NCBI GenBank assembly: GCA_032358165.1
Contig: JAALGY010000033.1
Location: 3,720,001-3,784,000, forward strand
From: Diplosphaera chodatii
Taxonomy: Eukaryota; Chlorophyta; Trebouxiophyceae; Prasiolales; Stichococcaceae
Length of the DNA: 64,000 bases
Direction: 5' to 3'
The notes under the pieces were generated by a model. That model searched no databases. It saw only the letters and a list, made by a program, of their open reading frames with translations, and was not told the origin of the DNA. Positions 20,301 to 64,000 of the stretch are shown here, piece after piece; within the stretch, counting starts at the first letter, position 1; each line of letters begins with the position of its first letter. Both the position numbers and the translations under genes were made by a program.

Positions 20301-21895
20301 GCCGCCTGCTGCCGCAGCTGCAGCGGCGGCAGCGCCGCCGTCTGCACCAGCACCGACGGCGAGGGCGGCTGAGGCGCTGCGGCAGCGGGGGCGCGGGCCG
20401 CAGCCAGCGCCGCATGTGCCGCTGCGACGGGGTCGGACGCAGCGGGGGCGGAGCCAGCCACAGGAGGGCGATCGTCGACCTGTGCCTGCCTCGTGGCGTG
20501 CGCGCTCTGCTGCGCAGCGGCCGGGTAGTGCGCCTCCTGCCCATCGGCGCCAGATGGGCTGCTTCCTGCTGCCGGCCCTGCTGCTGCCTCGTGCGCCACG
20601 TCCGTGGCGGTGCTCACCGAGCTGCTGGTGCTGGTCTTGGCGAAATCCTGCTGCAGCTTGCGCTGCACTACAGGGTTGGCTAGCCCAAACGCCTACACAG
20701 CACCAACAGCGCCGATGAGTGGGAATGTCGTAGCACACATCAGGATGACGCATGAGCCCCAGCATATGGGGCAGCCAGGATGCTTAGTAATCTCCATCAA
20801 TATTGCAGATGAGCAGCCCACCTTCACGCCGTTCACATACTGGTTGCTGCCCTGCGCCAGCGCAGCCGCCACCATGGCTGCCGTGGGGTTGCTGCCAACA
20901 AACGGCTGGCTACTGTTCTCCAGAGTCACCTGGAGCATGGCAGCATGCAACCGGTCTCCTGGGGTTCAGAGTCGGGACGAGCTGGATTTCCACGCCGTGC
21001 AGTCCATTTCCATCAGCAGCTGGTGAGGTATGGAGGTGGACACATGGCGGTGTGGGGGGAGGGCGCACGGTGCAGGTCGGGCCGCTGGGCGCTGAGCATG
21101 CTGCGGTCTCCATGCTGGCTGGCGGTCCAGTTCCCAAAAGCCGCTGGCAGCTGGCTCTGCGGCGGGCAGTTGGTTGGTTGACTCAGCGTTCGGCGCACAA
21201 GGGCAGGTTGACTGTTTTGCACACAAGGAGCGTGGCAGCGATCAGTAGTGTGCACCCAGCAAACTTGCAGCACAGTACCTGTAGTTGGCTGGCAGCCGTA
21301 GGCCCAGCTGCTCCGTGCTGTCTTCAAAGGCTCCAACGTCCCATACAGTGGTGCGGCAGGAGCTACCCCGCAGCGAGAAAGGCGTCGCAACCACCTGCGA
21401 GTGAGGGGTGGGCAACGCTCGTTAGGTCTTCTGCGTATCAGCCGATCCGCCGCACAATTGCACGGCCCCCGCGACACCCCTCATAGCATCTAAAACGTCT
21501 CCCACAGCGCAGATACTGGGCGCAAAATCGCAACGTGCAACAGCGTGGCAGATGGGTCGACTTGCAGGCGGTGATTGGGTTGGCTGTTGCTGCGGGGCGC
21601 CGCTGCTGCGCGCCTCTCCAGTGGGGCCGGCCCGTCTCATGTGCATCTAGGGTGTGCTTGCATGCATGGTCCCCGGTGGCAGGGGAGCTCGCGAGCGAAA
21701 TGTGGTTCTGCGTAAGTCTGCAGGCCCTGGCCCACTCCGCGAAGGTGCTGCGCACAGCAGCTTCGCCTAATCGTACAGAAAGCAAGCCGCTCTACGCCGT
21801 CCTATAAACGATCCCAGTGACGCTGCAAACGCATCAAGGAGGTGTGTCACGATCAGCGGCACTGATCGCACCTGCTGATATGCCACCGGCTCCAT
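17333..21895 (-). CDS. HMG-box DNA-binding protein
   Basis: Twelve exons keep frame and give 891 residues: 21895-21872 (tentative ATG exon), 21394-21274, 21019-20952, 20929-20822, 20692-19672, 19544-19401, 19242-18710, 18515-18372, 18161-18051, 17876-17767, 17624-17333. That list has eleven resolved entries; a further short exon is not excluded. The HMG box (about 685-750) is split over two exons: AKGWTAFTAFGLHTRDAVRA and NPGATSVEVEK, then LVGQLWGRLSKDEKQGWVQR. Basic clusters ARQKRKRP and HRRKRSS follow and look like nuclear localisation signals. The N-terminus has a non-low-complexity region (TTVWDVGAFEDSTEQLGLRL, HGVEIQLVPTLNP) that I cannot assign, then about 340 residues rich in Ala, Pro and Ser. 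Likely nuclear and non-sequence-specific or bent-DNA binding, by family. The start exon is supported only by frame phase. Confidence 0.75.
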
Positions 21896-22282
21896 CTTGT
21901 GCGACTGGCATGTTGCTCACGGCCGTCCGCTGCAACTGCCCACCCGCAGTGCGCACCACCCTACCCCAGCACTGCGCATGCTGCCCGTCTGAGTCTAAGC
22001 TGCGCGCAGGTGTATGGTGCGCTGCGCCTGCAGCCCTGCACCCGCGACGCGTCGAGGAGAAGGCAAGCTTCAGGCCAGCTTTCGCCGATCTTTGTCGTGA
22101 GTCAGTGCCATGTGGATGTGTGTCATCAGAAGGTACAGCCTAGGGTTTTGACACTTCTCAACTCCCGGAGCCTTGCACCCATACTGTGATGGGAGGTTGT
22201 GCACTGCAACACTCATCGCGCACTGTTGCTACTATCATTTGCGTAGCAGAGCGGTGCATCTATACGAATGGCGCGTTGATCG
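21896..22282. promoter_or_regulatory. Short divergent promoter region (HMG-box gene / ValRS)
   Basis: If the tentative HMG start at 21895 is right, only 387 nt separate it from the valyl-tRNA synthetase start at 22283 on the other strand, so the two genes probably share a bidirectional promoter. No TATA-like or named motif is evident. Confidence 0.35.
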
Positions 22283-25200
22283 ATGCTGCACAGGGCCTGC
22301 AGACTGCTGCCCAGGATGCTACTGCCAGTGGCGCAGCCAGCTTGCTCCGCAGGCTGCACTCTGCCACCCTCTGTGTTTCAAATCCTGCGTCCAAGGGCAC
22401 GCCTGTTTCACGTGGGTGGCTGGCGCCTGGGATCGACCCCAGCGGTGCATGTAGGCCGGTGTCTAGCGGCCTGCCTCCCATGCGGCGGCGGCAGGTCCGC
22501 ATCCAGCGCGGCAGCTGGGCGCAGGCGGTCTTTCCTGACGACCAGCAGAAGCGGCGTTGCAGCGCATGCTGCAGCCACGGATGCTCAGGCTCCTGCAGGT
22601 GGCGCGGCCGCCTCCCCGCCAGGTGGGGTGCTTGCGATGCGACGCTGTGCATGATGTGTACTTCTGGAGCAAACGCGCGGCGTGATGGTATGATTGAGGA
22701 GGAGGTGGACAGGCGACCTTGAATCATATTTTTTTCCGTGGCGATGACCTCAGCATCTTGTCCTCGGGCTGGTTGCAGGCCACAGCGGTGCGGAGCTGCC
22801 GAAAAACTTTGATCCCGCCGCCAGTGAGGAGCGCTTGTACAGCTGGTATGCAGATGTGCCGCAACCGCAAGACATGCTGTATACTCACTTGCATCATGCA
22901 CGCCGTCAGGTTGCAATGCTCGATTGTTGTAAGCAGTGTCTCAGGATCAAATGCACCGCCACAGGTGGGAGGAGCAGGGCTTCTTCCGGCCGGATGAATC
23001 CGCCAGCGGCGAGCCGTTCACCATGCCGATGCCGCCGCCCAACGTGACGGGCCGCCTGCACATGGGCCATGCCATGTTCGTCACGTTGCAGGCGAGCTCA
23101 CCTGCAGTCCTCCACGTCTCGGCAAGCGCGCTATTTGCAGCACCATTGCATGCGGTCCCTCTGGATGCTGCGGGCACTGGACGACCTCTTGTTATAGAGA
23201 CGCGCAGGACATCATGGCGCGCTTTGCGCGCATGCGTGGGCGCCCCACCCTGTGGCTGCCGGGCACCGACCATGCCGGCATCGCCACGCAGGTGCCACTT
23301 TGTGCACCGAACATAGCATGGCAGGAGCATGCATGCAGCCGGTCCTCAAGAGCTAATCAGACCATCTTGCCTTACCCGTAGAGGGCGCATGGAACAGAGC
23401 TGCTAGGCATGGGGCATGCATGCAAGTGTGAAGTTGCACCGATATGTTGCGAGAACATGGCCATACATCAGCTGGCATCCATGTGCGCTGACATGCTGCT
23501 GGACTTTGCCCTGCACAGCTGGTAGTGGAGAAGCTGCTGGCGAGCGAGGGCACCTCCCGCAAGGAGCTGGGCCGTGAGGCCTTCACGGAGCGCGTGTGGG
23601 AGTGGAAGGTGCGAAGCCGAGGGGCATGCCTGCTGTCTCAAACACTGACATGACGTCACGCACGGTCACACACCACCAAGGCAGCCCTCAAGCGCTTGCA
23701 CAGCGGCGCCGGCGATCCACCTGCAAGGCGATAGCTCAGTGGACTGGTGATTCTGCAGAGGACGCACGGCGGGGCGATCACGGGGCAGCTGCGGCGGCTG
23801 GGCGCCTCCTGCGACTGGTCCCGCGAGCGCTTCACGCTCGACGCCGCCCTCAGCGGTGAGGGGACGATCGTCATACGGATTGGTGTGTGGATGCGTTGCT
23901 ATGGGGTGAGTGGTGCAACATGACACGATCGCGTTGCTGGTGTGCACCTGCAGATGCGGTGACAGAGGCATTTGTGCGGCTGCACGAGCGGGGCCTCATC
24001 TACAAGGGGTCCTACCTCGTCAACTGGTCACCCAATCTACAGACAGCGGTCTCCGATCTGGAGGTGCGCCTGCACCTCATGCACCTTATAGACCGGGCCT
24101 CATGCTATATGGGAGCACCTGAGCATGCTGCAGCCCTTGCCCATCACCTGACAAATCACACGTGGCCTGACCTTGCAGGTCGAGTATTCAGAAGAGCCGG
24201 GGTCCATGTTTTACTTCCAGTATCCTGTTGCTGGTGGCGGCAGCGATGACTTTCTGCCGGTGGGTGATGGCTCGAGCTTGGCTGCTGAGTATTGCTGTCA
24301 AACGCTGACTGTTTAGCGGTAGAATTCCCGATGCTGATAGTCATTGTGAATGCAAATGCTTTGTGTGTGCGCAGGTGGCGACTACGCGGCCAGAGACCAT
24401 TCTGGGCGACACGGCAGTGGCTGTGCATCCGGAGGACCCCCGCTTTGCACAATTCATCGGCAAGCAGTGCGCGGTGCCGTTCACAGACAGGTGGGGCACG
24501 CGCAGCTACTGACTGTGCAGAGGAACACTGTGACTGCCCCGTGCGCTTGAATGTGATGCTTCCCCTCCATCCTTCTGAGGCACATCACTCTGACAACATA
24601 GACATCCTGGCTCATCCATACAACTTGACTGATGTGTGATGCCTGCTCAGGACCATCCCGATTGTGGCAGACGAGGCAGTGGACCGTGAGTTTGGCACGG
24701 GCGCACTGAAGATCACCCCTGGTCACGACCCAGTCGACTTCGAGGTAGCTGCCTGGGGCTGGTGTTGCCTGCTGCCGCTGCTGGACCAGGTCACATAGAC
24801 CTGTGTCCAGTTCCGTAGGCCAACAATTGTCGCGAGGGAGACATACCAACCCACTGTTGTAGAGGGTGGCTGAGACCAAGGGAAACGCTGGGCAGATCTC
24901 CATCGTAGGTGGGGCAGCGGCGCGGGCTGCAGATCATCAACATCATGAACAATGACGGCAGCCTGAACGACAACGCCGGACGGTTTGCGGGTCTGGATCG
25001 GAGTGAGGCACGGACGGCTGTATGGGAGGCACTGGAGGTGCGCATGCCAGAAATCAAATTCGTGTGCGCATGCCTGAGTGCTGCCAGATGCCTCTGTCAG
25101 CACCTCACACAGTGTGCTGGGCCGTTTCAAGCTCGCAACCTGTGGTGGCACCCACACTGGAATCATGAACCCATCGAGAAAGCTGATGCCTTGAGTTGCT

Positions 25201-46225: not shown

Positions 46226-49200
46226 ATGACCTCAGCCTTCAGTGGCAGCAGCGGCGGCGCCTTTGCACGATGGGTGCCGCCGGAACTGGATTCCCTTCCC
46301 TGCATGCCGGCAGCGCCGCTGGCGCCGCTGCCGCAGCTGACAGCTGGCCTTGCAGCCTTCATGGCGTCGTGCATGCTCACCACCGGCGCCGCCGGAAGCG
46401 CCCCCACCATCAGCAGCACTGCAGGAGTCTCGAAGCTGGCCAGGAGCACGGCAGTTGCGGCTCCCCAGGCAGCGACGGCGGAAGCAGCGGCAGAAGCCCC
46501 CGAGGGCGGCTGGACGCTGCCGGATGGGCGGCTGCGGGTGGGCATGCACCTGCCGCTGCTGGCCCGCCGATACAGGTCGTGATGGCCTGCAGTGTAACAC
46601 CTCTCTCAAACCTGTTGTCAAGCACTAGCTGTCCTGGGATGGACAGGCTGTGGGGCAATGTTGTGGCATGACGCTGTTAGGAGCATGGCGCATGCTTGGG
46701 CACACATGCAGCGGGTACATGCCTCCAGCCTGCAGCCAGCTGGACCTTCGAGCGACGGTCCTTTCACCTGGGCTGGCATCTGCATCGTGTAGGTACCTGG
46801 GGCCAGTCGGGGACGGGGCGTCAGCACAGGTGGTGCTAGCGGCGGACGAGTTGCGGCGGGGGTCGCCGCCGGTGGTGCTGAAGGTCATGCGCCGCCACCT
46901 GGCGGCCGCGGGCCAGAAGGTGCGTCCAGTGTGCGGCCGCTGCGCACAACAGGAGCAGTGGCTCCGCGCCACAGGCCCATGGCCGTGAGCTTCGTTTTCA
47001 ACGTCACGGGCTATCAGGCCTGCGGCCTGACGACTGCATGATGAGGGCGTACGAAGTGAGACCCTGAACCAATGCAATGCAAACACAAAAGCAGCTCGTT
47101 GATATGTGCTTGTAAAATGACCGCCAGGGTCTGGGCCATGGGTGCCAGATGTAGGAATTGATCTCCCTTACATATGTATATCGTGGCATGGCCCGTGTTG
47201 TGCAACTATGATTGATGCATAACTCTGTGCAGGAGGCAAGGGCGCTGCGGTATCTGTCGGTGGCAGCCCACCCTGCAGCGGCCGCCCACATTGTGTCACT
47301 ACGTGGAGCATTCCACTTTAAGGTGCGTTGCCACAGACACTCACGAGACTCTGCTTGATGTCATTGCAGCCTTGGCAGTGCTGCGGTGCTCTTGCACACT
47401 GGTAATGAGCACTTGTATGACTGCGTCTCCTGTGCAGCCGTTCACCACACTGCTGCAGCAGGCAACTGGGTCTGATGTAACTCCTCAGCGTCACTACAGG
47501 GCCACTTTGTGCTGGTGTTAGAGCGGCTGCGAGGCAGCCTTTTGGACCACATCGTGGCTATGGCGGCTGCGGTGCCTGCTGCACGGGTCGCTGCGCTGCG
47601 GAAAATTGCACAGCAACTGCTGGTGGGTGGACACCAGCAGCGGCTCGCTTGAGGCTCGTGCACATGAAGCCAGGAGCATGTGGTCGTGTATGCCGAGCTA
47701 CTGCAAATTTGCAGTGCAAAAAGCAACAGCAGAAGTCATTGGCATGCTTTCCCATCACCGAACCCCGCACCTGGACGTGTCGTGCACCACTTGCAGACCG
47801 CTGTGGACGCCCTGCATGCGTCCGGCATGGTGCACACAGACCTGAAGCCGGACAATGTGCTTTTGGCACAGCAGGCAGGTGCGAATCAATTTCAGCACTG
47901 ACCACGGACAGCAGCATCACTGAGGATTGACTGCGCCGCAGCCACCTGCAGGCATTGCCAGCAGGCTACTTGCAGCCGGCGACATACGGTTGTCTGCCTG
48001 ACTGCACTGCAGGCGCCGCAGGGGTGGGCGTGAAGCTGGCCGACTTCGGCAGCTGCTTCGCCGCAGCGGGCGTCGACACCGCGCGCCTCAGCTTCGAGCT
48101 GCAGACGCTGTCCTACCGTGCTCCAGAGGCAAGCGTCGCCAGAACGCGTCAATTGGGATAAGCATCGCACCTGCACCTGCACATGCATTCTGGTCTCAGC
48201 TCAGTGAATAGTGCCAGCCACGGCATGAGATGTGCATGCTGCCGGGCGGGCTCAACCTGCAAGCAGTGCCTGAAGTTCACATCGCATCATTTCAGGGCCG
48301 CAGTCGTGTGGGAATGGTTACCTGGAGATGACGCTTGATGGTGACACCTCATGATACACACGCCACCATATGTCTGCTTAATGACCATTGCAGGTCGTCA
48401 GCGGCTCGGCGGCTGTTGGACCCGCGGCCGACATGTGGTCGCTGGGCTGCATTTTGGCAGAGGTCGCGCTGCAGCGGCCGCTGTTCCCGGCGCACGCGCC
48501 AGCTGGCTTGCTGCAGCAGGTGTCCTGCTGGACGTGATACGGCATTCATGCAGGGCATGCTGCCAACATTGCACGTGTCTGGCCATGCTGCGAGGTTGTG
48601 CGGCCAGGCCGCAACCTCATGATAAGAGGTGTCGATCGCCCAACAGATCTCGGCGGCGCTTGGCCCTGGGGGCAGCGATGCTGCAGGCATGCGGCCGGCA
48701 GCAGCGTCGCATGCTGAGACTGCGCACGGGGCGGAGCCTGTCACAGGGCTGATGCCACATTGCGGCGAGCTGCACGGTTGGCACCTGACGGCGCCGCCGC
48801 TGCTGCGGGAACTGGCCACCCTGGTGCGGATGACATCATGCATTCTGCGGATTTTGGCAGTTTTCAGCAACTTACTGCTGCTAGTTTGTGCCGCTGCTAG
48901 TAACCCCACTGAATCGGGAACAAGATCCCGCCTGGGATACGCTGGGACAGCTGCAGCCAAATGAGACGCCTTGGCGAGGTTTCCTGGGTAGAGTAGAGCA
49001 GGGGTGTCTTCAATTCGATCCAGGGTGAGAAAGTAATGTTGCAGGACCGCAGCCTCGCGGACCTGGTGTCGAGGCTGCTCGTCATCGAGCCGGGTGCCCG
49101 GCTGAGTGCGCGCAGCGCTCTGCAGCATGCCTTCCTGCATCCGCTGACGCCGCTGGCGGCGGTCCTGCGATCCCAGGCGGCTGCCGCTTCGGCTGCTGCT

Positions 49201-50488
49201 GCAGCTGCGCAGGTACAGTGCTGGGCCTGCAGACACCGTACCCATAGTCCTACAACCAAGTTCGATGCTTGTTCTAAGAGAAACAGAAACTGCGCAGTGC
49301 GCGACGAACGACTGGTTAAGGTCGCCTTTTCGTGACCCCGCGCTGCTGCGTCATCAGGCGCCAGCACCTCTGGGAGCGTCGGCGGGTCCGGCAGCAGCGC
49401 GGCAGCGGCCGGCGCCGCCGGTGCGGCCGGCGCCGAGACGCGGCTTGCCCAGCCCGGCGGCAGCAGCAGCGCCGGCAGCGGATGTGGGAATGCCTGAACA
49501 CCGGGGCAGGTCAGCAAGTGACGCCGTCAGGTTCGACTCCCCTGCGGATGGGCACTGGAGTGCAGCGCTGCAAGCACCCAGCGAGCAGGCAGCGGCAGAA
49601 GCGCAGGCTGCTGCAGCCCTGCAGCCCTCGCACCCATCTCGCCTGTCTCCTGCGCATCGTACGTCGCCCGGCATGGCGCCTCAGGCATTGGCTGCTGAGT
49701 TCAAGTGCAGCCAGCAGACAGCGCTGTCTGGGGCGGCCAGTGTTGTGGCTGCTAGCACAGCTCTCAGGAGACAGCACAGCGTGCTACAGGGGGCACATGC
49801 CCAGCAGCAGGATGTGCAGCAGAAGCAGCAAGCTGAGGCTGCGTCTGCAGTGCTTCCTCCGCCCCCTGCAGGGGCGCCAGTGGCCACAGCCAAAACCGCA
49901 GCAGCGCCGCCACCGGCAGACAGCAGCGGCTGCACAGCAGCGACAGACGGCAAGGGCGGTCTCCACCTGGACAGCAGCAGTCTCCACCCGGACGGCAGCA
50001 CAGCCGACCCGCAGGGCGCCTGGCTGCGGCTGGGGCCGCTGATCGACGAGGTGTCGCCTCCATGCGAGTCACCACAGGGGGGCCGGATGCCCAAGCCGCT
50101 CAAGCCCCACCAGCAGCCGGCGCATGGGCACCAGCCAGCCGCCAGCGCCGGCAGCGGCCAGTTGAACCCCGCAGTCCGAAGCAGCGCGCATGCCGGCAGC
50201 GCGCCTGCTCAGGGCCTCGCATCTGCGGCGGCCGCCTCAGAGGGCAGCGGCGGCAGCGGCGGCAGCAGCAGCGGGGACGATGATGGTACAACCACTGCTG
50301 CACACTCTGCTGCAGTCGAGGCCCTGGCGGCTCTGGCGTCGTCCATGCCGCCGCGCCCGAGGCCAGCGCTTCTGCGGCAGCAGCGGCGGGAGGCGCCCAC
50401 AGCTGGCAGCAGCGTCAAGCCGGGGCATCGTGCTGCTGCCAAGCCGCAGCCGTCTGCAGCAAAGCGGCCCAGGTGGGCCGATAGATGA
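46226..50488 (+). CDS. DYRK/HIPK-like protein kinase with atypical activation loop
   Basis: A CMGC-group protein kinase, 829 residues over ten exons: 46226-46575, 46793-46919, 47233-47322, 47500-47622, 47797-47878, 48013-48128, 48394-48519, 48647-48823, 49045-49212, 49358-50488. The first ~116 residues are a disordered Ala-rich leader. Kinase motifs: Gly-loop GPVGDGASAQVV (121-131), VAIK-type lysine in VVLKVMRR (Lys147), catalytic loop HTDLKPDNVLL (Asp245), DFG in LADFGSCF (Asp268), APE as YRAPE (292-296), and DMWSLGCILAEVALQRPLF. DFGSC and the Q-T-x-x-YR spacing place it near DYRK/HIPK kinases, but the second Tyr of the DYRK YxY motif aligns with Glu286. The last exon encodes a ~377-residue Ala/Gln/Pro/Ser-rich tail ending in KRPRWADR. 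The intron after YRAPE appears to use a GC donor (48129). Substrates unknown. Confidence 0.88.
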
Positions 50489-51273
50489 TTGGCGTCAGTT
50501 GCATGCTCTGCAGTCCTTCCGTCGCTGTCCTGCGAACCATGAGCCCAGCTTGCATAGCATCCAGTGCCTGTATGCTATGCTGAAACCCCTGCACTGCATC
50601 ATCACGCAGGCCAAACCCAGCGGGCTTCAAGGATGTGGGGCCAGATATGGCCGGGGCCGGGGCCAGGGCCTCACCCGCTGCCGACTCTGGCCGCAGCAGC
50701 AAGCGGCGCGCAGCATCGGCTGCAGCCGCTGACGACGCCACGACGGCGACGCAGCCCAGAGGCACGCCGCAGCGCGGCCTGCGGGACCGGCAGCCAGCCG
50801 GCAGCAGGAAGCCCTGGTGGCAGGTGTAGGGGATCCGTTGCGATGCAATGCAACTGAGCATTCCCAGACAGCGTGCGTGGTTTCGGTCAACAAGTTGGTG
50901 TTTTCGTGCAAGGTCTGTCGCTGTGAAGTTCCGGGTGGGCTGCCAATTCATGGGCGTCATCATGGTACTCAGCCAGCAGACACTGGGTCATGAGCCATCA
51001 GATCTGCCTGCGCTCGAAGTGCCGGTATATCTTGTGATTCCAATCGGAGTTCAGCGCAAGCACTGTGTTGAGATCACGAAGGCACGACGCTGCGCACCAA
51101 AGGCATGCCCCGTTTCAACCCTGTTGCACCATGAAATCGGAACAGCTGTGCCCCTTGTTACATCGCAGAAGCGCTGCACGAGACTCGCTGCCCGACCACC
51201 CAGCAGTGCACACTCCAACGAATCAGCCGATGCTGCCCGCTGCGACCTCAGCAGGTTGCATCAATCAGTGCAG
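50489..51273. other. Convergent intergenic region (kinase / JmjC-GYF gene)
   Basis: It contains the kinase 3' UTR and the 3' flank of the minus-strand JmjC-GYF gene. A minus-strand frame around 50415-50963 and a plus-strand frame around 50848-51555 are open, but neither has motif or splice support. Confidence 0.4.
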
Positions 51274-54200
51274 TCATTGACCCCTGCCGCCGAGGCTGCC
51301 ACGGCCTCTGCCGTGCATGCGGCCGCGGCCGCGTCCCCCGCCGCTGGCGAGCGCATGCTGCGGCGGCGGGCGCTGATACAGCGGGCGCTGCGTCGGCTGC
51401 TGGTAGCTCTGCGCCTGCAGGACACCAGTGACGGGGTCGGCTGCCGAGCGATCGGGCATCAAGGAGGTGCACAACTCATGACTTACGCTGCCGCCGTCTG
51501 GTCATACAACATGCTACGTGGGCGCAATGTCTGGCTGCGAAAGTCTGGTCTTTGACGCCAGAGCCCGCGAGGCGTCAGCACGCCGAACCGTACTGCACAA
51601 CTGCTTGGCCCCTGTTCCAAGGGCGAGTACTGCGGGCTGCAGCTTGCCTGACGTCCATGCAGCCAGACCCTGCGCCCTTGCGGTCGCCTGCAGCACCCCC
51701 CCGCACAACCCAGTCATCCACCTACCGTGTCATTCCCCTAGTCAGAATTACGTCCCTGCCGCCGGGGTGCAGTCGGACGCCCCTCTTCTCATGACCCTGA
51801 CCCGATCCGACACAGGGAGTCCATGCGGCATCCGCCACTCACCCCGGTGCCCATGTTGCCAGGGTGCAGGCCGGCGCGGTGCAGCTCGCCCGACAGCCAG
51901 GCCGCAGGGTCCCGGCACACCGGCAGCCGCAGCAGCGACGCCACGGCCGCCAGCGCCGCGTGCTGCAAGATGGCAGGATGCAATCAACACGAGGCGCATG
52001 GTGCTTCCCGCCATGATGGCATAACTGTCACTGGCTCTGCAGGCTTGAGCAGCAAGCGCTGCAAGACTGTTGCTCATGCGGTGCGGCAGACGTCAGTGCT
52101 CAATGCTAGCTGCTGCGGTGTTACCATACAGCTGCAGTGAGCGCTTTTGAGCAGGTGCCTGGAAATGAGCCCGGGCACCACTGCCAGCAGCTTCACAACA
52201 GCAGGCGACCTACAGCGAAAGGGGGCGCCGGGCGCGGATAGGGTAGCTACCTGCGGCACAGGACGCAGCACCGCCAGCGCTGCTTCCAGCTGCCGCTGAT
52301 CCCGCAGATGCCCTGCCGTCTACAGTGGAGACAACAAAACGCCTGAGAAGACGCCCTGGGAACTGTTCATTGTAGGAACGCGATCATGAGGTTGAGACGT
52401 AATTGCGACGGCTGCAAACAGATATGAACATGTGCCAATGTGACAAAGTGTGCTTCAAGCCCTGCGTGCAGGGCTACTGGTGGCCTGACACCGGCATCAT
52501 ACCTGCGCATCCTGCAGCTTTGCAGCCACTGCCGACGGCACACCCCACTGCTCTGGCGCAATACCACTCTGCTGCAGGGTGGGTTGGCCGCCACCCAGCC
52601 GCTGGGCCGCCTGCCGCCGCAGCGACTCAGTGTCGAGCTGGACGCCGTTCAGGATTTTGCTCGCGGCCACTACTGGATTGCTGCCTGACGTCGCTCCGCT
52701 CCCCATCATCTGCGCCCTGCCCTGCACTTGTTCCCACGGCGCAGCCAGAGTGGCTGAGCCGCCGGCGGCAGCGGCGGGGCCTGCGTGGCCATGCGCAGCC
52801 GCAGCTGCAGGGCCAGGCAGCTGTGAGACGCGCTGAGCAGCCTGCCGCTGAAGGGATTCCGGGTCATACATGCCACGCGCGGTGTGCATTGGCCGGGGGC
52901 CGCCGGGCTGCAGGGCCGGCGGGTGCTGCAGGGTGTGTGCAGGTGCAGGTGGTGGCGGCGGACGCAACGCAGGAGCACAGCCCGGCCGCTGCGCACGGGC
53001 GGGCATCTGCAGTTGCGGCGTCGGCCAGCTGCCATGCAGCTGCCCGGGCGCCTGGTGCATGGCAGGCCGCCACGGCTGCTGCGGCCCTGGAGGCCGACCG
53101 GTGTGTGCTAACCCTAACGTCTGCTGCATCGGGGGCCTGATGTACTGCTGCAGCTGTGGCGTGGGCTGGTGCTGTTGCTGCTGCTGCGCCGGCGGCGGCG
53201 GCTGTGACTGCTGCTGTGGCTGCACAGAGACGTGCTGCTGATGATGATGTGCCACGCCTGGCTGCTGGGGTTTGTCAGCAGGACGCGCCACAGGATGCTG
53301 CTGCTGCTGTGTCCAGAGCGGCTGCAGCTGCTGCTGTGGCTGCGGCAGGGCCTGCGCATGCTGGTGCCAAGGCTGCTGCTGCCGCTGCCCTGCCGGCAGG
53401 GCAGGGTGCTGTGGCGGCACCGCCTGATGCATCGCCGTCGCTGCCGGCTGCGGCGGCCACTGCTGCGGTACGAGGGGGCATGGCGCCTGCACAGCAGTTG
53501 GCGCTGGCAACTGCGGCGGCTGCTGGTGGCCAACGTGCCACGACGGCTGCTGCTGCTGCTGCGCTGCAGGCTGCTGTCGCACCGGCGGCAAGTTCCAGGC
53601 TCCACCCTGTGCAGATGCTGCTGGTATTGGCGCCACAGCCTGCTGCACAGCGGGGGGCTGCTCTGGAGCCAGCGGCTGCTGCGACGGCGTTGCAGCTGAG
53701 TGCTGCGGCGTCGATGGCAGCGGCTGCGGGGGCTGCGTGCTGCTGCTGCCTGCTGGCAGGGTCCCTGGCCCATGAGTGCCGCCATCTGGGGCGCTGGTGA
53801 CGACGGGTGCGGATGGGGCCTGCCCCGCCGCCGCCAGCCGCTGCTGCTGCTCCTGCAGTCACCACAGTGACGACACAATAGCTGCAGGGCTTTGGCAGGT
53901 GGTAACACTCGCAGCTGGCAAGGATGCCACTGTCAAACGCGGCGATGAGCAGCTGCAGATGCATTGGCCCTACACTCCAAAGCATACCGACTCGTCCTTC
54001 ATGCGCCGCCAGCGGGCCTTGCGGTTCAGCTTCTGCAGCAGAGCGGGGTCCTCTGGCAGCGGCGGCGGCGGCGGCGGCTGCAGGTCTCCCTCCGCGGCTG
54101 CTGCCTGCGGTTGGCTGTCGGCCGGAGCAGCCTGCTGCCGGGGCGCACCCGGCGATGCTGCAGGGCGGGCCAGGGCCGCCTGATCTGTGAGTGGCAGGGT

Positions 54201-57200
54201 GCTGGCTGCTGCCAGCGGGGCGGCAGTGGGAAGCGGGAAGCGGGGCACTGCAACGCTCTGCACTGCTGCCTGCAGCAGGCTGAAGTCGATGCCGGCCGGC
54301 GGCAGGGGCTGCGGCAGCGGCTGCCGGCCAGCCTGCAGCTGCGCTGGCGGTGTTGGCGGCGGCGCATGTTGAAGGCCAGCTGGGGGTGCGGCTGGCCACG
54401 GTCCGCGGCCGACAGCGCCGGATGGCGACGGCGCGTGCGGAGGGGCGACATGCACAGGCGGTGACGAAGGCGGTGCCGCTGCGGCAGGTGCACCGACCCT
54501 CTCAGTCGGGCTCCAGTCGGGGGCGGCAGGCGGCTCCCAGTCTGGCGCAGCAGGCGGCTCCCAGTCGGGCTTAGCATGCTCTGCCCTGGGCTCGGCAGGT
54601 GGATTCCAATCCGGCAGGTCGGCTACTGGTGGCTGCTGCCGGTGCTGCTGCTGCGCCTGCTGCGGCTCGTGATGGGTGTGCTGGGCCGAGGGAGGGGCGG
54701 CAGCCGCGGAAGCAGCAGCAGCAGCAGCAGCAGCAGCCGCAGACTGCACGATCAGCGCCGGCGCCGGCGCCCCTGACCCGAGCGGCGGGCTGTGCTGGGC
54801 GAAGGGGTCGTAGCCCCCCTCGAAGCCCGGCGGAGAGGCGGGTGCTTCAGCCCCGCCTGCGTCTCCTACGATGCAGTGCCCGTCGACCTCACAGTGCTGA
54901 TGCAGATGCGCCCTCTTCCTGACTACTGCCGACCGCCACACTCAGCAAGACAAGGTGCACTGCTGCACGTTTCGCTGTACCTCTATACTGTGTCGTGCAC
55001 ATTTCTCCATCTACGTCAGCAAAAAGCATGCAACATAGAGCCCAGAAAAGGGCAACACACCTGCAGCTGGAGAAAGGACACGACCTACAGGCGATCGGGC
55101 AGGCACAGCATTCTGAGTCGCCATCTTCCCATCGGGCCATGGCTGTGGCTGTGGCTGTGGCTGTGGCTGTGGCTGCAACTGCGGCTGCGGCTGCGGCTGT
55201 TTGCCGGCCTCAGCAGCCGCCACCAACTGCGCTGTCGACTTCAGGAGCTGGCTTGCCTGCAGCCGTAAATGCACAGCAGGCAGCTCATGCCCAGATCCCT
55301 CATGGATCCCCGCCGCAGCAAATGCACATTGTCGTTGCCGTTTAGGAGCATTGCTAACACAGTGCGGCTGCACGTTTCTAAAACGCACAATCAAACAGAG
55401 CCTTTGGCTAGTCGATTGCCTCAGGAGCGCACCTGGATGGACACTCCGGCTTCTTCATCATGCAGCATGTCTGTGGCCCTCAGCGAGCCCCTGCAAAAAG
55501 CATATGGTTACAGCACATGGGATCCCAGGGCGCTGGGTACAACAACAGCATGGATGGTCCAGCACTGGCAGGGCATGCAGCAACACCAGCAGCTACAGAG
55601 GTGCCTTTCGTATGCCGGAGCCAAAGGTTCGCACCTGGCGAGCAGCTTTCGAAGCTGGGATAGGGAGTAGGGGCCCTTCTCCTCGCCGTCTCCACCGGTG
55701 AAGACCCACTCGCCCTCATCCTCGGCCTGCACCGCCGCCGCCACCTGCACCGAACAGCAGAACCGCTTGCTAAACTTATGACGCAGGCCCTGGGCTGCTT
55801 CCAACGCATGCACGCACGCCAGTCGCTTGCAGGTTCGCAGGTTGCTGCGAGTGCCTCAGACACCAGCAGACGCATGCACCATGCACAGGGACAGCGCACA
55901 GGAATTCTGGCAAGCCGCACCACGTCTCAGGCTGCTTGCAGAGTATGCGGCAAGGGCTGACGCTGCGGGGTGTGCAGGCGTTTGCACATTGAGACATTGC
56001 AGGGCGTGGCATAAGGCAACAGCTGGGCTATGTACCTCCTGCTGCAGCGCGGCCAGCGTTTCCCGTCGCCACCGCTGCTGCGAGCCAAGCCCCTTGGGGG
56101 AGCGCACCCCTCGGCTGCCACGGCCTGTGTCGTCCCACCGCCGCCGCTTCGGGTCCCGGCCGCCTTCGGTGCTATGTCAGTTGCGACACAGCTGCTTCAG
56201 AGCTCGTCTTGATACACCTGAGTGTGGCACCTCGGCGCAACTGTGTATCTTACAGCACAGCATCCCGATCGCATCACAGGGTGGGTGCATGTCAGGGAGC
56301 CACAGCAAGGACCACAGACAGCAACCTGGTTGCACGGCGGCCGTCAGCTGGGCTGCGCTTCGGCGGGTGACCGGCCCTTGGCGGAGGCGGGCTGCTGGGC
56401 TGTGCTGCATCGCGAGGCTGCTGCATCCGTGCCGCCTGCACTCAGGTGATGCATCCATGTAGTGCTGACGAACCCCGAAGCGAGGCACACCATTGGCAGC
56501 ACCTGTCCTAGTCGGCTTCCATTGTGAAATGCATGCAACAGGCATCGAACACGGCTGCTGAGTGACCACTTGCCAGAACACATCTGAGGCCTGTACATAC
56601 CTGGTCCAGGAACAGGCGCAGGGGCGCTGTGCCGCGCGCCGGGTGGGCGACGGGCGTGTCCTGGGGCAGCAGCCCGCCGCCGGCCAGCGCCGCCAGCTGC
56701 TGCAGTGTGAAGGGCCCCTGCACATGGTGGGACAGGTGGCTGAAAGCTGCTGCCCCAACAGCCGTGCAGTTGTACACCCACCTGCATGCTCCTGTGCACA
56801 GTCGTCTGTCTGTGCGTCGCAATCACACACGCTGCACAGGAGCCCCCTTGCATAGGCCCCTTGCACAGGTCCCCATGCTTAAGGGACCTGGTCAGCCAGG
56901 CAGGCCCCAGCCATACCTGCAGCTTGCCAGCAGCGTTGCGGTAGCTGAAGACACGCTGGGGGTCCGGCTTTGGCGCAGCTAATGGCGCAGCGTTGGCAGC
57001 GGTCTCGGCCAGGTCGCTTCTGCCGAGAGCCCTGCGCACAAGCCAGAACAGCACATCAGAATCGCAACAGACCAAAGCATTTGTCAAGCACCATCGTGCC
57101 AACCATGCCTGGGCATGTGAATCTCAGGTGTGGCGTGTTCAGGCATGCGAGCTGGCGTCTCGACGACCGTGAGCCGTTCCCACCCGAGAGCCTGTTTCAG

Positions 57201-60200
57201 CGCGGCAATGCGGCGGCTGATGCGGGCTCCGCCGTCGCTGAGCGTCAGCTGCCCTTTTGCCACCCTCGCCTGACACACCAACGACAGCGCATGCGTTGCT
57301 ATTGCTGATGTGCTTGCACTGGGCTTGCTTGCGAAGCACTTTTTAAAACAGTAAGGGTTACTGATGCGGAAAGGCAGGGCACAGCAGGAACTGCCCGGAA
57401 ATATGATGGCACCTGCAAGCCCAGCTCATGCTGCAGCAGCCCCTGCAGGCGGGCCGCCTCAGCGGCGGGGGTCTTCTGCTGCCCCTGCGGACCTTTCAGC
57501 GCCTGCGGCTGTGACTGCTGCTGCTGCATCTGCTGCCGCTGCTGCTGCAGCTCCTGCTTCCGCTTCAGCATCTGGGCGGCTGCGCCGCGACCGCCCGGCT
57601 TGAACAGCCCCTCGGGCGCTGGAGCCTATGTGTGGTGAAGAAAACCCTGTAACATGTGGTTCCTTGACACTGGATGATCTCCTCACAGCCTGGAGTGTCC
57701 GAGTCTGCATGGTGGGTGGCACAGGCTGCGGTGCATGGGAGGGATACTGGGCAAAACTTGGCAGGGGGCATGGCGCAGCCTTGCGCACCGGCAGGGCGGG
57801 CTCCTGAGCGGCAGCCGCCTTGCCCCTGGCTGCTGCCGGTGCCGGCCGGGCCTTTGCTGCGCCCCGCCGCGGCCGCCCGGCTGCTGGCGCGGCCCGCCGC
57901 CGCCGCCTCGGCCTGTAGTCGTTGTCGAGGTCAGCCCCGGAGTCTGCAGCATCTGAGGACTCGGACGCGTCACCCGAAGCTCCATTCGCGTCGCCCAAGG
58001 CGGCTGGATGGGCCGGGTCGAAGCCCATGGGGTCGTTCGGCGCGATGCCCTGCGCCAGAAAGGCGTCGGCAGCGTCGTCCAGAAAGCTGCCGCCGCCTGC
58101 AAGGAATGGCCAACGCTCGTCAGCCATCCAGCTCAGCACACTGCCAGCTGCGGACACCTGCAGCCTGCTCTGTCCACAGGCGCGCCGCTGCGGGGCATGG
58201 GCACAGCCCAGCAGCACCATCTTCACGCCAGGACACCAGCTCCACACGTCCATCGGGTGGCACGCTTTCGGGGCTGCTGGCAGGGGGAACTGGAGGCCCC
58301 ACCGTAGGGCCGGGTGAACATGCCCAGGTCCAGGTCTTCGAACTCCGTGGCACCCAAATCCAGCAGGTCCGCCGCGAAGCTGGGCGGCAGCAGCTCGGCG
58401 TCCAACTCACCTGCGGCGCAACACGTATCACTGTCAAAGCCTGAGAGCCCAGCGCCAGCAGCAGCTGAAACACAAGCTGCTGCATTCTGCGGCGCTGGTC
58501 TATGTTCAGGCATCATATCCATGCATACCTGCGGCGACTTCGCCCGGCAGCGGCGGCAGGTCGCTGGCGGCGGAGTCTGCAGCGGCGGCCAGGTCGGCAC
58601 CGCCGCCATGAAAGCCGCCGTTCTGCAGCTCGACAACTGGAGCAGCCGCATGAGCGGCCGCCTGAGGCATGGCGCCATTGCCAAGAACGTGTGCACCCTC
58701 CTCGTGAACGTGGCCATTGCCCGCGGCGGCCCGGCCGCCGAGGCGGTCTTGAGTTGCAGCCGATTCGCCGTCGCTGCCGTCTGCAGCGGCGGCGGCGGCC
58801 GTGCCGGCGGTGCGGCGGCTGCTGCCTCCACCGCCGGGGCGGTGGCCGCCGCCGCCGCCGCCGCTGATGCTGGCTTGGTGGCTGAGGCGGCGCTGCCTGG
58901 CCGCTGCCCTCCTGGCGGCTGCTGCTCGCTCCGCTGCCTCCTCGGCGGCAATGCGCCTGGCGGCACCTGCAAAGCATGGGATTCCGCCAATCAGTACACC
59001 ATAGGAACGCACGCATACCCCAGTGACACTGGCAACCTTGCTCCATACATGGTCGCATCTCCTGTGCTGCTGGCGGGCTGATCAGTGCGGGTCACCTACT
59101 GCTGCCAGCTGGTTGACAGACCATGCCAGTTGCAATGCTCCCAGCTTGTGGGACTCAGGGTTGGTGCCTGTATGAATGGAGTGGACCTGGCGGGGGCGGC
59201 GGCGGGGTGCGCTTCGGGATGATGAAACCCGAGGGCTTGAGGCGTGCGCTGGCGGGCGATGCCGGGCCGGCCTTGCTGTCAGCAGCATCGACGCCGCCAG
59301 CAGCGCTGCGCTGCGCATGAGGGCCGTCCAGATCCGCAGCTGCAGACCCTTCCTCAGCGGGGCGTGCGGCGCCATGCGGCTTGCTCATGGACACTGCCCG
59401 CGCTGATCCCGCATGCCCTGCCGCCGGCGCTGCCGCTGTCGGCACCTGCGCTGCGCTGCCTGCATGGCTGCCGGCCGGCGCTGACGCTGACACTTGCCAC
59501 GCGTGCATCACGCTGGTGAGCGCCTCCGACAGCTGGGCCAGCAGACCTGAGGGGCACAAGCGAGGGGTCGGACAGCGCGTGTGAAGCAATGTCTGTACAC
59601 CGGCATGGCTGGAGAAAACAGGCCGAGCAGAAGGCGTGCACGATGCAGTTGCTGCCTGTCTCGGGTAGTGCAATTGTGAATGCACCCGCTGGGTTGGCAA
59701 TGGAGGCGGGCGCTCCTGAGGTGACACCGCGGCGGGTGCGGCTACGTCCCCACCCCTGCATCGCGCATCAATAACCGTGACTCCACTTGGTCGTTGAGCA
59801 ACGTATGACATCTTGACAACCACCACCACAAGACCAACGCACACGCTCGCAACTTCACAAGTGCGTGTGTTGTCAGCCCGTCAGGTTGCAGGCCGCTGAG
59901 GGCAGTCGTCGGCTCAGCTTGGCATGCAACAGGCGCACTCGAAGGCTGCCACGGGAGCCAGTGGGCAATGCAAGCAGGACCAGGCACTCGCAGCGTTCCA
60001 CATTCTCAGCCGCAGGCGAACAGGCCGAGCAATCCCACCTGCAGCGCTTCCAGCAGCATGGGCAGGCCGTCCACCTCCCACCGTGTGATGGCGCCAGGGC
60101 CAAACTCGTCTGGAGGCGTGCCTGCACACATTACGGCCGTCGTATTGCACAGCAATGGCCCTAGCCGAGTTGCGTGCCATGATAATCACGCCAGCCCATG

Positions 60201-62976
60201 CGCAATGTGAGCACGGCGGAGACACTACTTGGGCATGGCAACATGCAACTGTCATGAACAGCTAGGTTGAACAGCGGATGTGCATGCACCGCGGCGGCAG
60301 TTTTGCGAGGGGGTCCACCCTGTCACGATGGTCTGAACACTGGGTTCCAGGCTTGCAGTCACGCAGACCCTTGACCCACACCTGCTGCCAGCACCGCCTG
60401 CAGCCGGGCGACGTAGTGCGAGGCGGCGTGCCACATCAGCGTCCTGAACAGCGGGAAGCGGAAGGGTAGCGCCACGCCCAGGCGGCCCTCCATCTCCCAC
60501 ACCGCCAGCTGCGCCCTGTACGCCAAACGTGCAGCAGCGTCTTTTCCACACCGATGCTGGGTTCGCGGCCTGTGGTTGAGCTGTTGCAGTCCCCGCAGTG
60601 GAGCTGAGCACTTGGTCGCTGCCTCGAAACGCTGGTCCTGTCGATGGTCATATGCAACTACAGGCAGGCCAGCCGAAGGACTAGTTTCACCCTCCGGATG
60701 TCAGTACCGTGGTTGTGATCCATGCAACACAGGACATGGGGTACGCACCTGAGGTCCAGGCCGTGCAGGAAGTTGCCGCCAACGACGATAGAGTCTTCGG
60801 GCGTCACCACCGCGTGCGGCCAGCCGCCCGGGATGAGCAGCGTCTCTCCGGCAGACACGTCGATGCGCACGCCGCCGCTGGCGACGTCCGCAAAGAAGCT
60901 GGAGGCCTGCAGCAGAGTCAGCGTCACACTCTGGCCAGGCGCCTGGACAGGGCCAATGCCTCGGGGGACACTGTCAAACTCTGCCGACCCAAGCACGTGA
61001 ACCAAGGCGTATTGCAGGTGCTGCAGCCTCAGGCGCGAGCTTGCCTGTTCCTCTGAGGACGCCCATCGCTCGAAGGCGGCGGTGTTGGCGGCGGTCGGCG
61101 GGAAGGCGAGGAACACCTTGCGGCCGGACACCACGTGGTACCAGACGGACGAGCCGCCGAAGTCCACGTGGAAGTCGGTGAAGGATCCCGCGGGGCTCAT
61201 CAGCGCGTACAGCAGCACCTCGGGCCGCGGCTGCAATGCAAAGATACAAGCTGTACAGCGGCTCTCGGGACAACTACACGTACTGCAGCAGCACCTCAGG
61301 CAGCAGCTGCCTTTAGCCGGATACCCAGTGCGCGCCCCATGAGACGGGTGTATTGGCAGGGTGCATAGGGTGTCGCGGTTCGTACCTGCGCCTCTGAGGG
61401 CCAGGCGGTGGCCACCAGGTCGATGGCGCGCACCACTCCCGGCGCACCCACGTGCTCCTGCGCAGTGTGGACTGCCGTAGTCACAGCAAGCGCCAGCCGC
61501 AGCGTGTGAAAACACGAGGACCAGCAGGCCCATGATGTCGCACCAGCCTCCCGGGGCTGATGTGGGCGGGTGCCACTCTGCTTGCCTCCCCGCTGGCCGA
61601 CCCACGCAGCACACGCCGGCGCACACGCTCCGCCCAGTAGTGTTTTAGGTTTAGGGTGACGGCGCGGCCGGCCCACCCCAGCGGACCCACCTCCAGGGGC
61701 GTGCCAGCGAGGCTGAGCGACACCACGTTCAGCAGCTTGCGGCGCGCGTCTGCCGGTGTCGCCCAGTACTGCGCCCACTCCCGCAGCGACATCCGGGGGC
61801 CGGCACCCTGCAGCGCCACCGGCAGGGGGCTCAGCAGCTTGCCTGCAGTACGCTTTGTCAGGCGTGACCAGCAACCCTGCATCGCATGCTTCCCCGGCAC
61901 GCGTCCGCTCCCGACGAGCGGCGCAGCGGCACCTGCGTCCTGACGTTGATGGTGGGCGCCCGGGCGTCCGGACCCACCGCGGCGCAGATGCTGCCCGGCG
62001 TCAGCGGCTGCTCCGGCAGCCGCATGCCCAGCGCCTGGCATGGCGGGGGTGCACAAGTCACGAGTGCTCCACCGCTGCGATGCTGGAATGGGGGTTAGCT
62101 GGCTGACTCGGAGTGTGCTGCAGGGCAACTCGGTGATGGACATGCTGCCACCACTGCCTCGCCGAGAGTGTTTGCGCCTGTGAGGCGCAGGCCGCCGCCA
62201 GCATGGGCTCCCTGAAGCCGCTGCGCTGCAGGGCCTCCAGGGACAGTTCCCTGCGACATGATAGGCAACCCGTCACCGTGTATGCAAACGCTCGAGTTGC
62301 TGCCTGGAGTGCGAACAACAATGCTGGGTGGGCAAGCCATCAATGCTGCTGTTACACCGCTCACTGGGGCTGGAACTTGGCAGTGAGATCCGCAAAGTCC
62401 CCCTGCAGCAGCGCCTGCGAGAGCCGCAGGTGGTCCAGGGGCGGCGGCGCAGCAGCGGGCGCCTCGTCTTGTGGCTCAGCATAGTGCGCCTGTGTTCAAC
62501 AGCCAGCACGAGGTGGTCACGCCTGGGCCGGCAGTCGAGAGTGGCAATCAGGGCGTCACAGGAACGACGTGTTTCCTTGTGACGGCGCAGATGACGCCAG
62601 GTGATCTGAACGTCATGTGGAGGACAGCAGCGCAGCGGGAAGGCACCTTGTTGCTGCTGCGGTCTCGAAGCGCACGGGCTGCTGTCGGCTCTGCTGTGCC
62701 ATCCGACTGCACTGCCAGGCCGCTGGTCGCCGTACCGATGGCGCCGCCAGCTGCCTGCCCAGCTGCTGCTGCCGCCAGAAGCTTTGCGTGAGGGGCGGTG
62801 GCGTCTGCGTCGACATCATCCTCATGGGAACTTCCCCGGGGGATGGCTGTCCGGTCTGCATGCGCAGCTGCATGCTGGGCCGCCACAGCTACGGCATCGG
62901 CGGGTGTCGGGGTCGCCAAGGAGGTGCCAGTTTGCGCTACGGCCGTGTTGCCTTCCGACAGAGACACCCAGCCCAT
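51274..62976 (-). CDS. KDM2/PHF8-type JmjC demethylase fused to two GYF-type domains
   Basis: Predicted nuclear Fe(II)/2-oxoglutarate histone lysine demethylase, about 2,200 aa. Exons keeping frame: 62976-62647, 62489-62365, 62250-62178, 62034-61933, 61807-61691, 61457-61386, 61230-61045, 60906-60749, 60515-60382, 60121-60039, 59755-59686, 59546-59187, 58966-58529, 58410-58303, 58096-57687, 57625-57413, 57269-57109, 57031-56917, 56717-56601, 56435-56326, 56171-56036, 55744-55635, 55490-55433, 55256-55089, 54896-53988, 53852-52503, 52319-52251, 51962-51843; last exon about 51474-51274 (edge uncertain). JmjC part: MSLREWAQYWATPADARRKL, FTDFHVDFGGSSVWYHV (His294, Asp296), Lys311 for 2-oxoglutarate, GGWPHAVVTPED (His366), and a post-JmjC LPFRFPLFRTLMWHAASHYV as in KDM2/PHF8. 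GYF-like domains: VFSYRNAAGKLQGPFTLQQL (~1070-1115) and EWVFTGGDGEEKGPYSLSQL (~1218-1262). A Gln/Pro-rich tail ends in an RG-rich C-terminus. No PHD, CXXC or F-box was seen. Confidence 0.75.
54478..54590 (-). repeat. Coding tandem repeat PDWEPPAA
   Basis: Inside the large exon 54896-53988 of the JmjC-GYF gene, about 24-nt units encode DWEPPAAP with small changes, preceded by DWNPPAEP and followed by DWSPTER. The spacing is regular, so this looks like recent unit expansion within a disordered Pro-rich region. Trp-Pro/acidic units of this kind could be short linear binding motifs, but that is speculation. Confidence 0.6.
54711..54738. repeat. (AGC)n trinucleotide microsatellite in coding sequence
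   Basis: About nine uninterrupted AGC units lie in the exon 54896-53988. On the minus coding strand they read as a poly-Ala run. Likely length-polymorphic. Confidence 0.75.
55139..55200. repeat. (GTGGCT)n hexanucleotide repeat coding for Pro-Gln
   Basis: Tandem gtggct units, then gcggct units, lie in exon 55256-55089 of the JmjC-GYF gene. On the minus strand they encode an alternating Pro-Gln run of about nine repeats. Likely slippage-prone. Confidence 0.75.
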
Positions 62977-64000
62977 CACCGGCTAAAGCTCAGCCTACAG
63001 TGCCGCATGGCCTGCGCAAATGATGCAGCACGGTAAGCTCAGGCAGAGTGTGGGGAAGCCAGCACTGCACTTGTCAGACAACGTTAGCGTGACTGCAGAT
63101 GGGTCTGGTATGTATGTGCTGAATGACAAGGTTTGTGGATGCACTTGCCCAGCTGGCACGCACCCTACGGCAGTTCATCCTGGCGCCAGTTCAAGTGCAA
63201 CATGGCAGAACCACCAACACGCGCTAATCCTTGTGCTGCAGTGCGATAATATTCACAGCCATCGTTGAGGGCGCAAAGAGAGAAACACGGAGGGCTACGA
63301 CATGCAGGCCATGATGGTGCATTGCGACGCCGCAGCAACCCCCTCACGATGTGCGGTCGCATACAGAAACCTGCCAAGATCGCCGACACTGCAAGATAAA
63401 CAAATCAAAGCTGCAACACCGGAGGCTGAGTCTGAACTTTCAGGGGCTGAGCTCGTGTTGCAGTTCGTAAGTAACTGCAGGAATGCTCACCCTGTAGCAG
63501 AGCTGGCCATGCATTGCCGCCATGCGCGCCCCAGCACGAAGCACTTGGCGCTTTGTGCTTGTACTATCTTCACCAATTGCTGATCCTGATGTTGCACGAC
63601 AGCCTACTCTGACCTCGCGCAGTAGCTTTCCAGCTGTCGACACCATTCTGTTCACCAGGGCAGCCCAGCCTCGGCACATACCTTTGTGGCCGTCTCGCAT
63701 AGCCGCTGGCAGTCTCATCCTCAAGCCAGCCTTGCACAACTTTCAAGACTGTCAGCCGGGACGCTGCATTGTTCGCCAAGTGGCGGCTACAGCCGGCAGC
63801 AGCGGCGGACGGCCTCCTGCATTGTGAGGCCCTGCAGCTTGTTTCAATTTGTCAGCAATTGCTAACATATACCTCCTATGCATGACGTTTCATCGTGTTA
63901 CACAGGATCTATAAAGTATGCAAGAGTCGCCTCTCTACAGTTGACGCTTGATGGCGCTCTTGTTGATGCAGCACCGGCGGGATGGCGGATCAGCAGCAGC
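62977..64000. other. 5' flank of the JmjC-GYF gene, to the window edge
   Basis: About 1 kb upstream of the JmjC-GYF start. Only short unsupported ORFs are seen on both strands. It should include the promoter and perhaps untranslated exons; the neighbouring gene to the right lies outside the window. Confidence 0.4.

Follow-up and report, generated by a model that had tools for sequence, protein, structure and literature searches.

KDM7 histone lysine demethylases are marked by a PHD finger, and KDM2 enzymes by a CXXC-PHD-F-box-LRR arrangement. Passages of a 2008 survey treat the KDM2 subfamily as animal-specific, without a plant member, and do not settle which plant proteins erase methylation at H3K36 (PMC2579438), and term searches of parts of two later plant surveys gave no mention of KDM2, PHF8 and KDM7 (PMC9029850) or of KDM2 and PHF8 (PMC10178440). 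GYF-type domains have been described in other settings: excerpts of PMC7313042, PMC3567966, PMC5406457, PMC13132833 and PMC9699677 concern SET-GYF or NERD/ZMP proteins, and excerpts of PMC5657617 and PMC12249416 concern canonical GYF proteins. Here we describe a gene of the green alga Diplosphaera chodatii in which a JmjC demethylase core and GYF-like domains are predicted to lie in one chain. It is found on the minus strand of the window, by which we mean the whole 64,000 nucleotides analysed (positions 3720001-3784000 of contig JAALGY010000033.1, below C27; the genome comprises 85.6 Mb in 55 contigs).

Between 62976 and 51274 on the minus strand, 29 exons encode a single predicted protein of 2,122 residues, arranged as JmjC domain, jumonji helical domain (JHD), linker, helical hairpin, two GYF-like domains, Pro/Gln-rich tail and RG end, and the whole coding span is matched by a colinear, intact second copy on another contig (C26). 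We consider it probable that this is a single green-algal nuclear gene, in which a KDM2/KDM7-type Fe(II)/2-oxoglutarate lysine demethylase is joined to a hairpin and a GYF_2-like part with a proposed docking role. As judged from predicted proteins, it is a new domain arrangement of a known kind of enzyme, common to several green algae. A sequence-only reading of the locus had taken the architecture for undescribed, and no paper describing a JmjC-GYF protein was recognised in open-licence PubMed Central, judged by titles and term counts; the arrangement is, however, not unique to this genome but shared by uncharacterised database proteins.

Gene model

Exons were joined by hand from the minus-strand reading of window positions 64000-50001 and its open frames. 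The first chain led from the ATG at 62976 to a stop ending at 51274 through 28 exons (2,123 residues), its phases matching throughout and its only stop at the end. A chain of 28 exons, the number given by the sequence-only reading, was thus reproduced, but in the final model one exon has been added and three boundaries have been moved. These corrections were drawn from the nucleotide alignment of the C26 copy, and orthologues were compared by eye: exon 3 now ends at 62163 (15 bases longer, with a GC donor), an extra exon that had been missed or cut short lies at 59755-59686, the exon following it begins at 59546, and exon 15 ends at 57789, earlier than in the first chain.

The catalytic core

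Pfam was run on the 2,123-residue protein of the first chain and returned seven families at E-values up to 1. JmjC (PF02373) scored 30.6 bits (cut-off 24) over positions 2-114 of its 114-position profile, and the JHD (PF17811) scored 29.4 bits (cut-off 23.4). With phmmer the core matched PHF8 (E 1.1e-61) and KDM2A (E 2.1e-60), aligned over 2-271 and 3-271 of 321, and N242, T296, H299, D301, Y309, K316, H371 and N385 were identical to PHF8 in both genomic copies (8/8); we take these positions to include the Fe(II) and 2-oxoglutarate contacts (H-x-D...H and the 2-oxoglutarate Thr and Lys). The earlier identification of a complete JmjC domain of the KDM2/PHF8 type is thereby borne out. The N-terminal part of the core, with N242, was located by the PHF8 alignment in exons 3-5 (62250-62163, 62034-61933 and 61807-61691; overall 61691-62250), and the JmjC domain, which holds the other seven positions at the cofactor site, in exons 6-8 (61457-61386, 61230-61045 and 60906-60749; overall 60749-61457) by Pfam and the residue check. 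Exons 9-12 (60515-60382, 60121-60039, 59755-59686 and 59546-59187; overall 59187-60515) encode the JHD, the helices that follow it and the start of the linker, as placed by Pfam and the copy alignment, and show similarity by eye to an Apatococcus protein (P0004). Since no PHD finger, CXXC zinc finger, F-box or LRR was among the seven Pfam families, we file the protein as having a KDM2/7-type core rather than as KDM2 or KDM7 proper.

From its conserved residues, the core is predicted to demethylate histone lysines. Alternatively, the JmjC fold could have been kept for binding, making the protein a catalytically silent scaffold, as the loss of active-site residues in a relative of the same tree group (Myrmecia P0047) and the PHF2-type active-site changes of animals might suggest. 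We regard this as unlikely, considering that the eight checked residues are intact in both copies and that the JmjC-JHD part (359 codons) is among the most constrained segments of the gene, with a ratio of nonsynonymous to synonymous divergence (dN/dS; Nei-Gojobori method, window gene against C26 copy, 14 segments) of 0.175.

In [Myrmecia] bisecta P0047, R and Y replace the two Fe-binding His and A replaces the Thr, and this protein may be a pseudo-enzyme. The moss Ceratodon purpureus (P0030), a land plant, carries a KDM2/7-type gene with M at the active-site Thr position.

The GYF-like domains and the helical hairpin

Over the whole protein, GYF_2 (PF14237) scored 33.1 bits (cut-off 25.8) in two stretches, and canonical GYF (PF02213) scored 16.5 bits, under its cut-off of 25.7; the two GYF-type segments proposed earlier thus stand as GYF_2 matches but not as members of the canonical family. 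Both were located by Pfam and by our own GYF profiles. Exons 18-19 (57031-56917 and 56717-56601; overall 56601-57031) encode the first, with GPF at F1034 (dN/dS 0.32), and exons 22-23 (55744-55635 and 55490-55433; overall 55433-55744) the second, with GPY at Y1178 followed by MLHDEEAGVS (dN/dS 0.18); exons 20-21 (56435-56326 and 56171-56036; overall 56036-56435) form the spacer between them (dN/dS 0.27). The splice junction 55635/55490, which had been proposed to extend the second segment, proved right and is kept in the C26 copy. Against the ATXR3 GYF model this second segment scored 22 bits (cut-off 27).

The GYF signature is given in passages of PMC12249416 as GPF-X4-[M/V/I]-X2-W-X3-GYF, and the groove of GIGYF2 as Y538, F549, W557, Y562, F563 and L567. 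Neither the W nor the GYF tripeptide of this signature is present in the GYF-like segments. In 20 algal copies counted ungapped from GP[F/Y] (P0001 having the variants GSF and GPW), an aromatic residue was seen at the Trp position in two and at the Tyr position in none; the weak copies in P0001, P0022, P0028 and P0029 are part of this count. A search of solved structures with the GYF alignment gave GIGYF1 as the best match (E 6e-4), and in this block algal Leu and Gly-Glu-Leu stand in place of Trp and Gly-Tyr-Phe. The first module retains Tyr and Phe at two groove positions, and another gene of the same genome (L010) has W and GYF intact.

According to the portion consulted of PMC5657617, the exchanges Y575A and W570A/Y575A in Arabidopsis PSIG1 abolish its interaction with the PPGF protein SMG7. 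Because the corresponding ligand-binding Trp and Tyr are missing from the algal modules, proline-peptide binding is not supported, and the earlier description of these domains as modules for Pro-rich ligands had to be given up. One could still speculate that the GYF-like modules of the same single gene bind PPG-hydrophobic motifs in the manner of GIGYF and PSIG1, possibly the protein's own PPGF (residue 1282) or poly-Pro. The location of PPGF is common to both copies, two further PPG-hydrophobic sites occur in the C26 copy (3 against 0.60 in shuffles), two groove positions of the first module are still Tyr and Phe, and PSIG1 itself has PPGF, for which passages of PMC5657617 suggest self-binding. 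However, with the groove Trp and Tyr lost, with a motif count in the window copy close to that of shuffles (1 against 0.61), and with the motif absent from nine of the ten other proteins checked (P0003 has one, PPGV), we find such binding improbable.

Ahead of the first GYF-like domain, exons 16-17 (57625-57413 and 57269-57184; overall 57184-57625) encode a conserved helical hairpin with an L-x-D-x-G tip at about residues 949-993. A profile trained on the window protein, the C26 copy, P0001-P0004, P0020-P0022 and P0024 recovered P0023 and P0025-P0028 outside its training set (E 7e-6 or better) and, weakly, P0029, and had no match in moss or other short relatives among 111 proteins; no named family in Pfam and no naming match in the PDB was found for the hairpin. 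In the AlphaFold model of the relative P0021, the hairpin is modelled as two helices (predicted local distance difference test, pLDDT, about 90), and the hairpin and both GYF segments together have pLDDT of about 79-94, with most remaining parts low (mean 47.6). Foldseek and VIA-align 2 led to KDM7-type cores and, for the GYF parts, to 1wh2 and GIGYF1, the first GYF row in Foldseek being 1wh2 (E 0.036, TMt 0.61). The hairpin is retained also in relatives without GYF.

Relatives and phylogeny

A first protein search with the catalytic region, covering proteins of about 1,168-3,715 residues, gave 19 matches among 7,988 scored, four of them long and algal or probably algal: Bryopsis sp. KO-2023 (P0001), Micractinium sp. 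CCAP 211/92 (P0002), a EukProt entry (P0003) and Apatococcus lobatus (P0004). Pfam was applied to nine of the 19. P0002 and P0003 each had two GYF_2 stretches over the cut-off and JmjC under it, with the JHD over the cut-off in P0002 and under it in P0003; in P0001 the cut-off was passed by JmjC and JHD but not by the one GYF_2 stretch; P0004, whose annotated JmjC lacks the second half, had JHD and one GYF_2, both under the cut-off, and no JmjC match. Pfam found no GYF in the other five of the nine. A second, profile-based search returned ten matches among 7,986, eight of which were new proteins. JmjC and JHD passed the cut-off in P0020, P0021 and P0023, where the GYF matches, at 19.0-24.8 bits, fell short of it; Picochlorum P0022 combined a degenerate GYF (11.9 bits) with HARE-HTH; and no GYF was found by Pfam in P0024-P0027. 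A third search, directed at shorter proteins, gave 84 matches among 7,990, among them proteins of the moss (P0030), of Myrmecia (P0047) and of another Bryopsis gene (P0031). A GYF domain was listed for none of the 84 proteins, and no match to the GYF profiles was as good as E 0.1 (nearest, P0028 at 0.34). A diverged GPY segment adjoins the hairpin in P0028 and P0029.

The profiles of the two GYF segments, trained on the window protein, the C26 copy, P0002, P0003, P0020, P0021 and P0023 (with P0004 for the second only), were run on the 111 proteins and on shuffled controls, and matched P0022 (E 4e-9) and P0001 (E 1.6e-7, two stretches) outside their training set, with one shuffled protein at E 0.07. 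Co-occurrence of both domain types in one chain was seen in predicted proteins of other genomes, including those of named green algae. Other C-terminal partners were seen on cores of the same group, namely HARE-HTH (over the cut-off in P0022, just below it in P0024-P0026) and SWIB, below the cut-off, in P0005 and P0006.

A tree of 81 rows, many of them metagenome proteins, was built by a quick method with support from the SH-like approximate likelihood ratio test (SH-aLRT) only; over the whole tree, 29 of 78 inner branches lack resolution. The window protein, the C26 copy and Apatococcus form a group (SH-aLRT 91). This group lies among 45 rows that include every named green alga and the moss and that are separated from the other 36, where animals, fungi and diatoms are placed (97). 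The nesting of the HARE-HTH rows in the Micractinium-like clade (99) points to a loss of the GYF modules in the HARE-HTH lineage.

The second copy and the case for a single gene

Searching the genome with the catalytic core gave seven matches on C26, 63-93% identical and five of them at 85-93%, and C26:381501-400000 is colinear with the gene and its flanks. The diverged copy (C26:382980-394502) encodes 2,136 residues in 29 exons with one terminal stop. All 28 introns share position and phase between the copies. Acceptors are AG in 28/28 in both copies, and donors are GT in 28/28 on C26 and in 26/28 in the window gene, where introns 3 and 7 have GC donors (62162-62161 and 61044-61043); in the aligned sequences, the donors of these two introns are ones that changed after the copies separated. 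Exon lengths differ in 8 of the 29 exons, always by multiples of three, and with the final boundaries the 29 exons are 73-94% and the 28 introns 41-73% identical (of the longer intron). The dN/dS ratio ranged from 0 to 0.51 across all 14 segments and was 0.365 overall.

Exons 1-2 (62976-62647 and 62489-62365; overall 62365-62976) encode a mostly low-complexity N-terminal region (residues 1-151; dN/dS 0.40), with the ATG conserved in the C26 copy. The linker between the JmjC and GYF halves occupies exons 13-15 (58966-58529, 58410-58303 and 58096-57789; overall 57789-58966), with dN/dS of 0.44 for the linker part of exons 12-13, 0 for exon 14 and 0.17 for exon 15. Exon 14, an acidic/hydrophobic segment, is identical in 36/36 residues despite a synonymous divergence (dS) of 0.31, and had no match above shuffles among the 111 collected proteins. 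The Pro/Gln/Ala-rich tail is encoded by exons 24-26 (55256-55061, 54856-53988 and 53852-52503; overall 52503-55256; dN/dS 0.40-0.51, with 0.45 and 0.51 in the two largest), and a conserved C-terminal segment with the RG-rich end and the TGA stop by exons 27-29 (52319-52251, 51962-51843 and 51414-51274; overall 51274-52319; dN/dS 0.15 for exons 27-28 and 0.30 for exon 29). A minus-strand TGTAA at 51158-51162, a candidate poly(A) signal of the green-algal type, follows the stop at a distance of 112 nt; in the C26 copy a TGTAA follows the stop at 169 nt.

The exons thus look translated in one frame across the supposed gene boundary. Because the C26 copy keeps the frame, the introns and the purifying selection of the linker exons, and because both domain types occur in one chain elsewhere, we favour one gene spanning both halves, as the sequence-only reading did. 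That a KDM2/7-like demethylase and a separate GYF protein are two adjacent genes linked only by plausible splice sites is very unlikely: GC-rich DNA is full of alternative splice sites, many JmjC relatives are short (203-776 residues in the 84 matches), P0028 and P0029 stop shortly past the first GYF-like segment and the C26 copy has a TGTAA at 387699, between its two halves, but linker exons 12-17 hold frame, intron positions and purifying selection, the exon 14 protein is unchanged, P0002, P0003, P0020, P0021 and P0023 each join JmjC or JHD and two GYF matches in one chain, and the sequences of P0021 and P0023, whose first residues already belong to the JmjC core as in a reading of unspliced DNA, probably hold both halves in one open frame.

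Several observations weigh against the single JmjC-GYF gene as we propose it. The GYF scores are modest, each window segment alone reaching 20.3 and 24.8 bits, under the cut-off of 25.8, and in several relatives the whole-protein score is also under the Pfam cut-off. HARE-HTH relatives of the KDM2/7 type, the moss and Myrmecia have no GYF over the cut-off. The GYF modules lack the known ligand-binding aromatics, which leaves docking a tentative proposal. The first exon set gave 12 stops on C26, as three boundaries did not carry over, among them the wrongly placed end of exon 15, and the frame there was opened by boundary moves taken from the same alignment, which makes the C26 model a transferred and not fully independent one; beyond those moves the 6.4 kb coding sequence needed no further change. 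Linker and tail showed no detectable conservation outside the genome's own two copies (111 proteins, shuffles). Finally, the TGTAA is uninformative, given that the one at 387699 of the C26 copy lies in an intron between the halves.

Window positions 20001-23000 and 49000-51200 also match C26, in inverted colinear order and mostly at 69-81% identity, and several JmjC and GYF loci seem paired across contigs. With a dS of about 0.4 over the gene, far above allele level, the C26 and C27 copies are not taken for alleles, and the pattern suggests a duplicated genome (allopolyploidy, a hybrid or an old whole-genome duplication). On the plus strand, window positions 50000-64000 hold 14 open frames of at least 150 residues, the longest (256 residues, 57674-58444) inside the gene span; these are probably GC-rich shadow frames.

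Proposed function

In our proposal, the KDM2/7 core and JHD would act on a lysine in the tail of histone H3, of the K36 or K9 class, and remove its mono- and dimethyl marks. A low-complexity linker would connect the core to the hairpin and the two GYF_2-like domains, followed by the Pro/Gln-rich tail and RG end; linker and tail are presumably disordered. Where animal and fungal relatives have a PHD or CXXC reader, this protein would have its hairpin-GYF part. By recognising a ligand that differs from the canonical PPG-hydrophobic motif, that part may anchor the enzyme to a partner protein belonging to chromatin or to the transcription machinery. The H3-lysine activity is deduced from conserved residues, and the docking role is a proposal. 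It is possible, though we would put it forward only tentatively, that the gene represents a green-lineage demethylase class predating the split of Ulvophyceae and Trebouxiophyceae, in which PHD/CXXC gave way to the hairpin and a pair of GYF-type domains whose remodelled groove is a non-proline one, an eraser counterpart of the plant SET-GYF writers with GYF as a tether shared by methylation and demethylation. Linked as it is to GYF modules, and with a relative in a moss (P0030), a green-algal enzyme of the KDM2/7 type would be a defined candidate eraser and a natural test of demethylase targeting without a PHD or CXXC reader.

Comparison with known systems

The algal protein resembles KDM7/PHF8, PHF2, KIAA1718 and KDM2A/JHDM1A in its catalytic core, JHD and Fe(II)/2-oxoglutarate residues, but unlike KDM7 and KDM2A it has no Pfam PHD, CXXC, F-box or LRR and carries instead the hairpin and two GYF_2-like domains. 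Picochlorum-type KDM2/7 proteins with HARE-HTH (P0022, P0024-P0026) share JmjC and the same hairpin, P0022 and P0024 having been in the training of the hairpin profile and P0025 and P0026 not; they differ in the C-terminal HARE-HTH (over the cut-off in P0022 only) and in a GYF that is degenerate (P0022) or not found. A GYF domain in a chromatin protein is also a feature of the NERD/ZMP-type plant proteins and of At5g08430 (1wh2), whose GYF domain we take to be kin to theirs. Unlike the algal protein, those of the NERD/ZMP type bear a zinc finger/PHD, SWIB and Plus-3, with no JmjC mentioned in the passages concerned (PMC13132833, PMC9699677). With GIGYF1/2, PSIG1/EXA1 and CD2BP2 the algal modules share the fold and the GPF/GPY core but not the signature W and GYF tripeptide (signature as in part of PMC12249416). 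In plant ATXR3/SDG2 and ATXR7/SDG25, as in the algal protein, a GYF-type domain lies in one chain with an enzyme of histone-lysine methylation, according to sections of PMC13132833 and PMC7313042. Among the Pfam families of the algal protein at E up to 1 there was no SET match, and whereas ATXR3 and ATXR7 write H3K4 methylation through their SET domain, the algal protein has a demethylase core.
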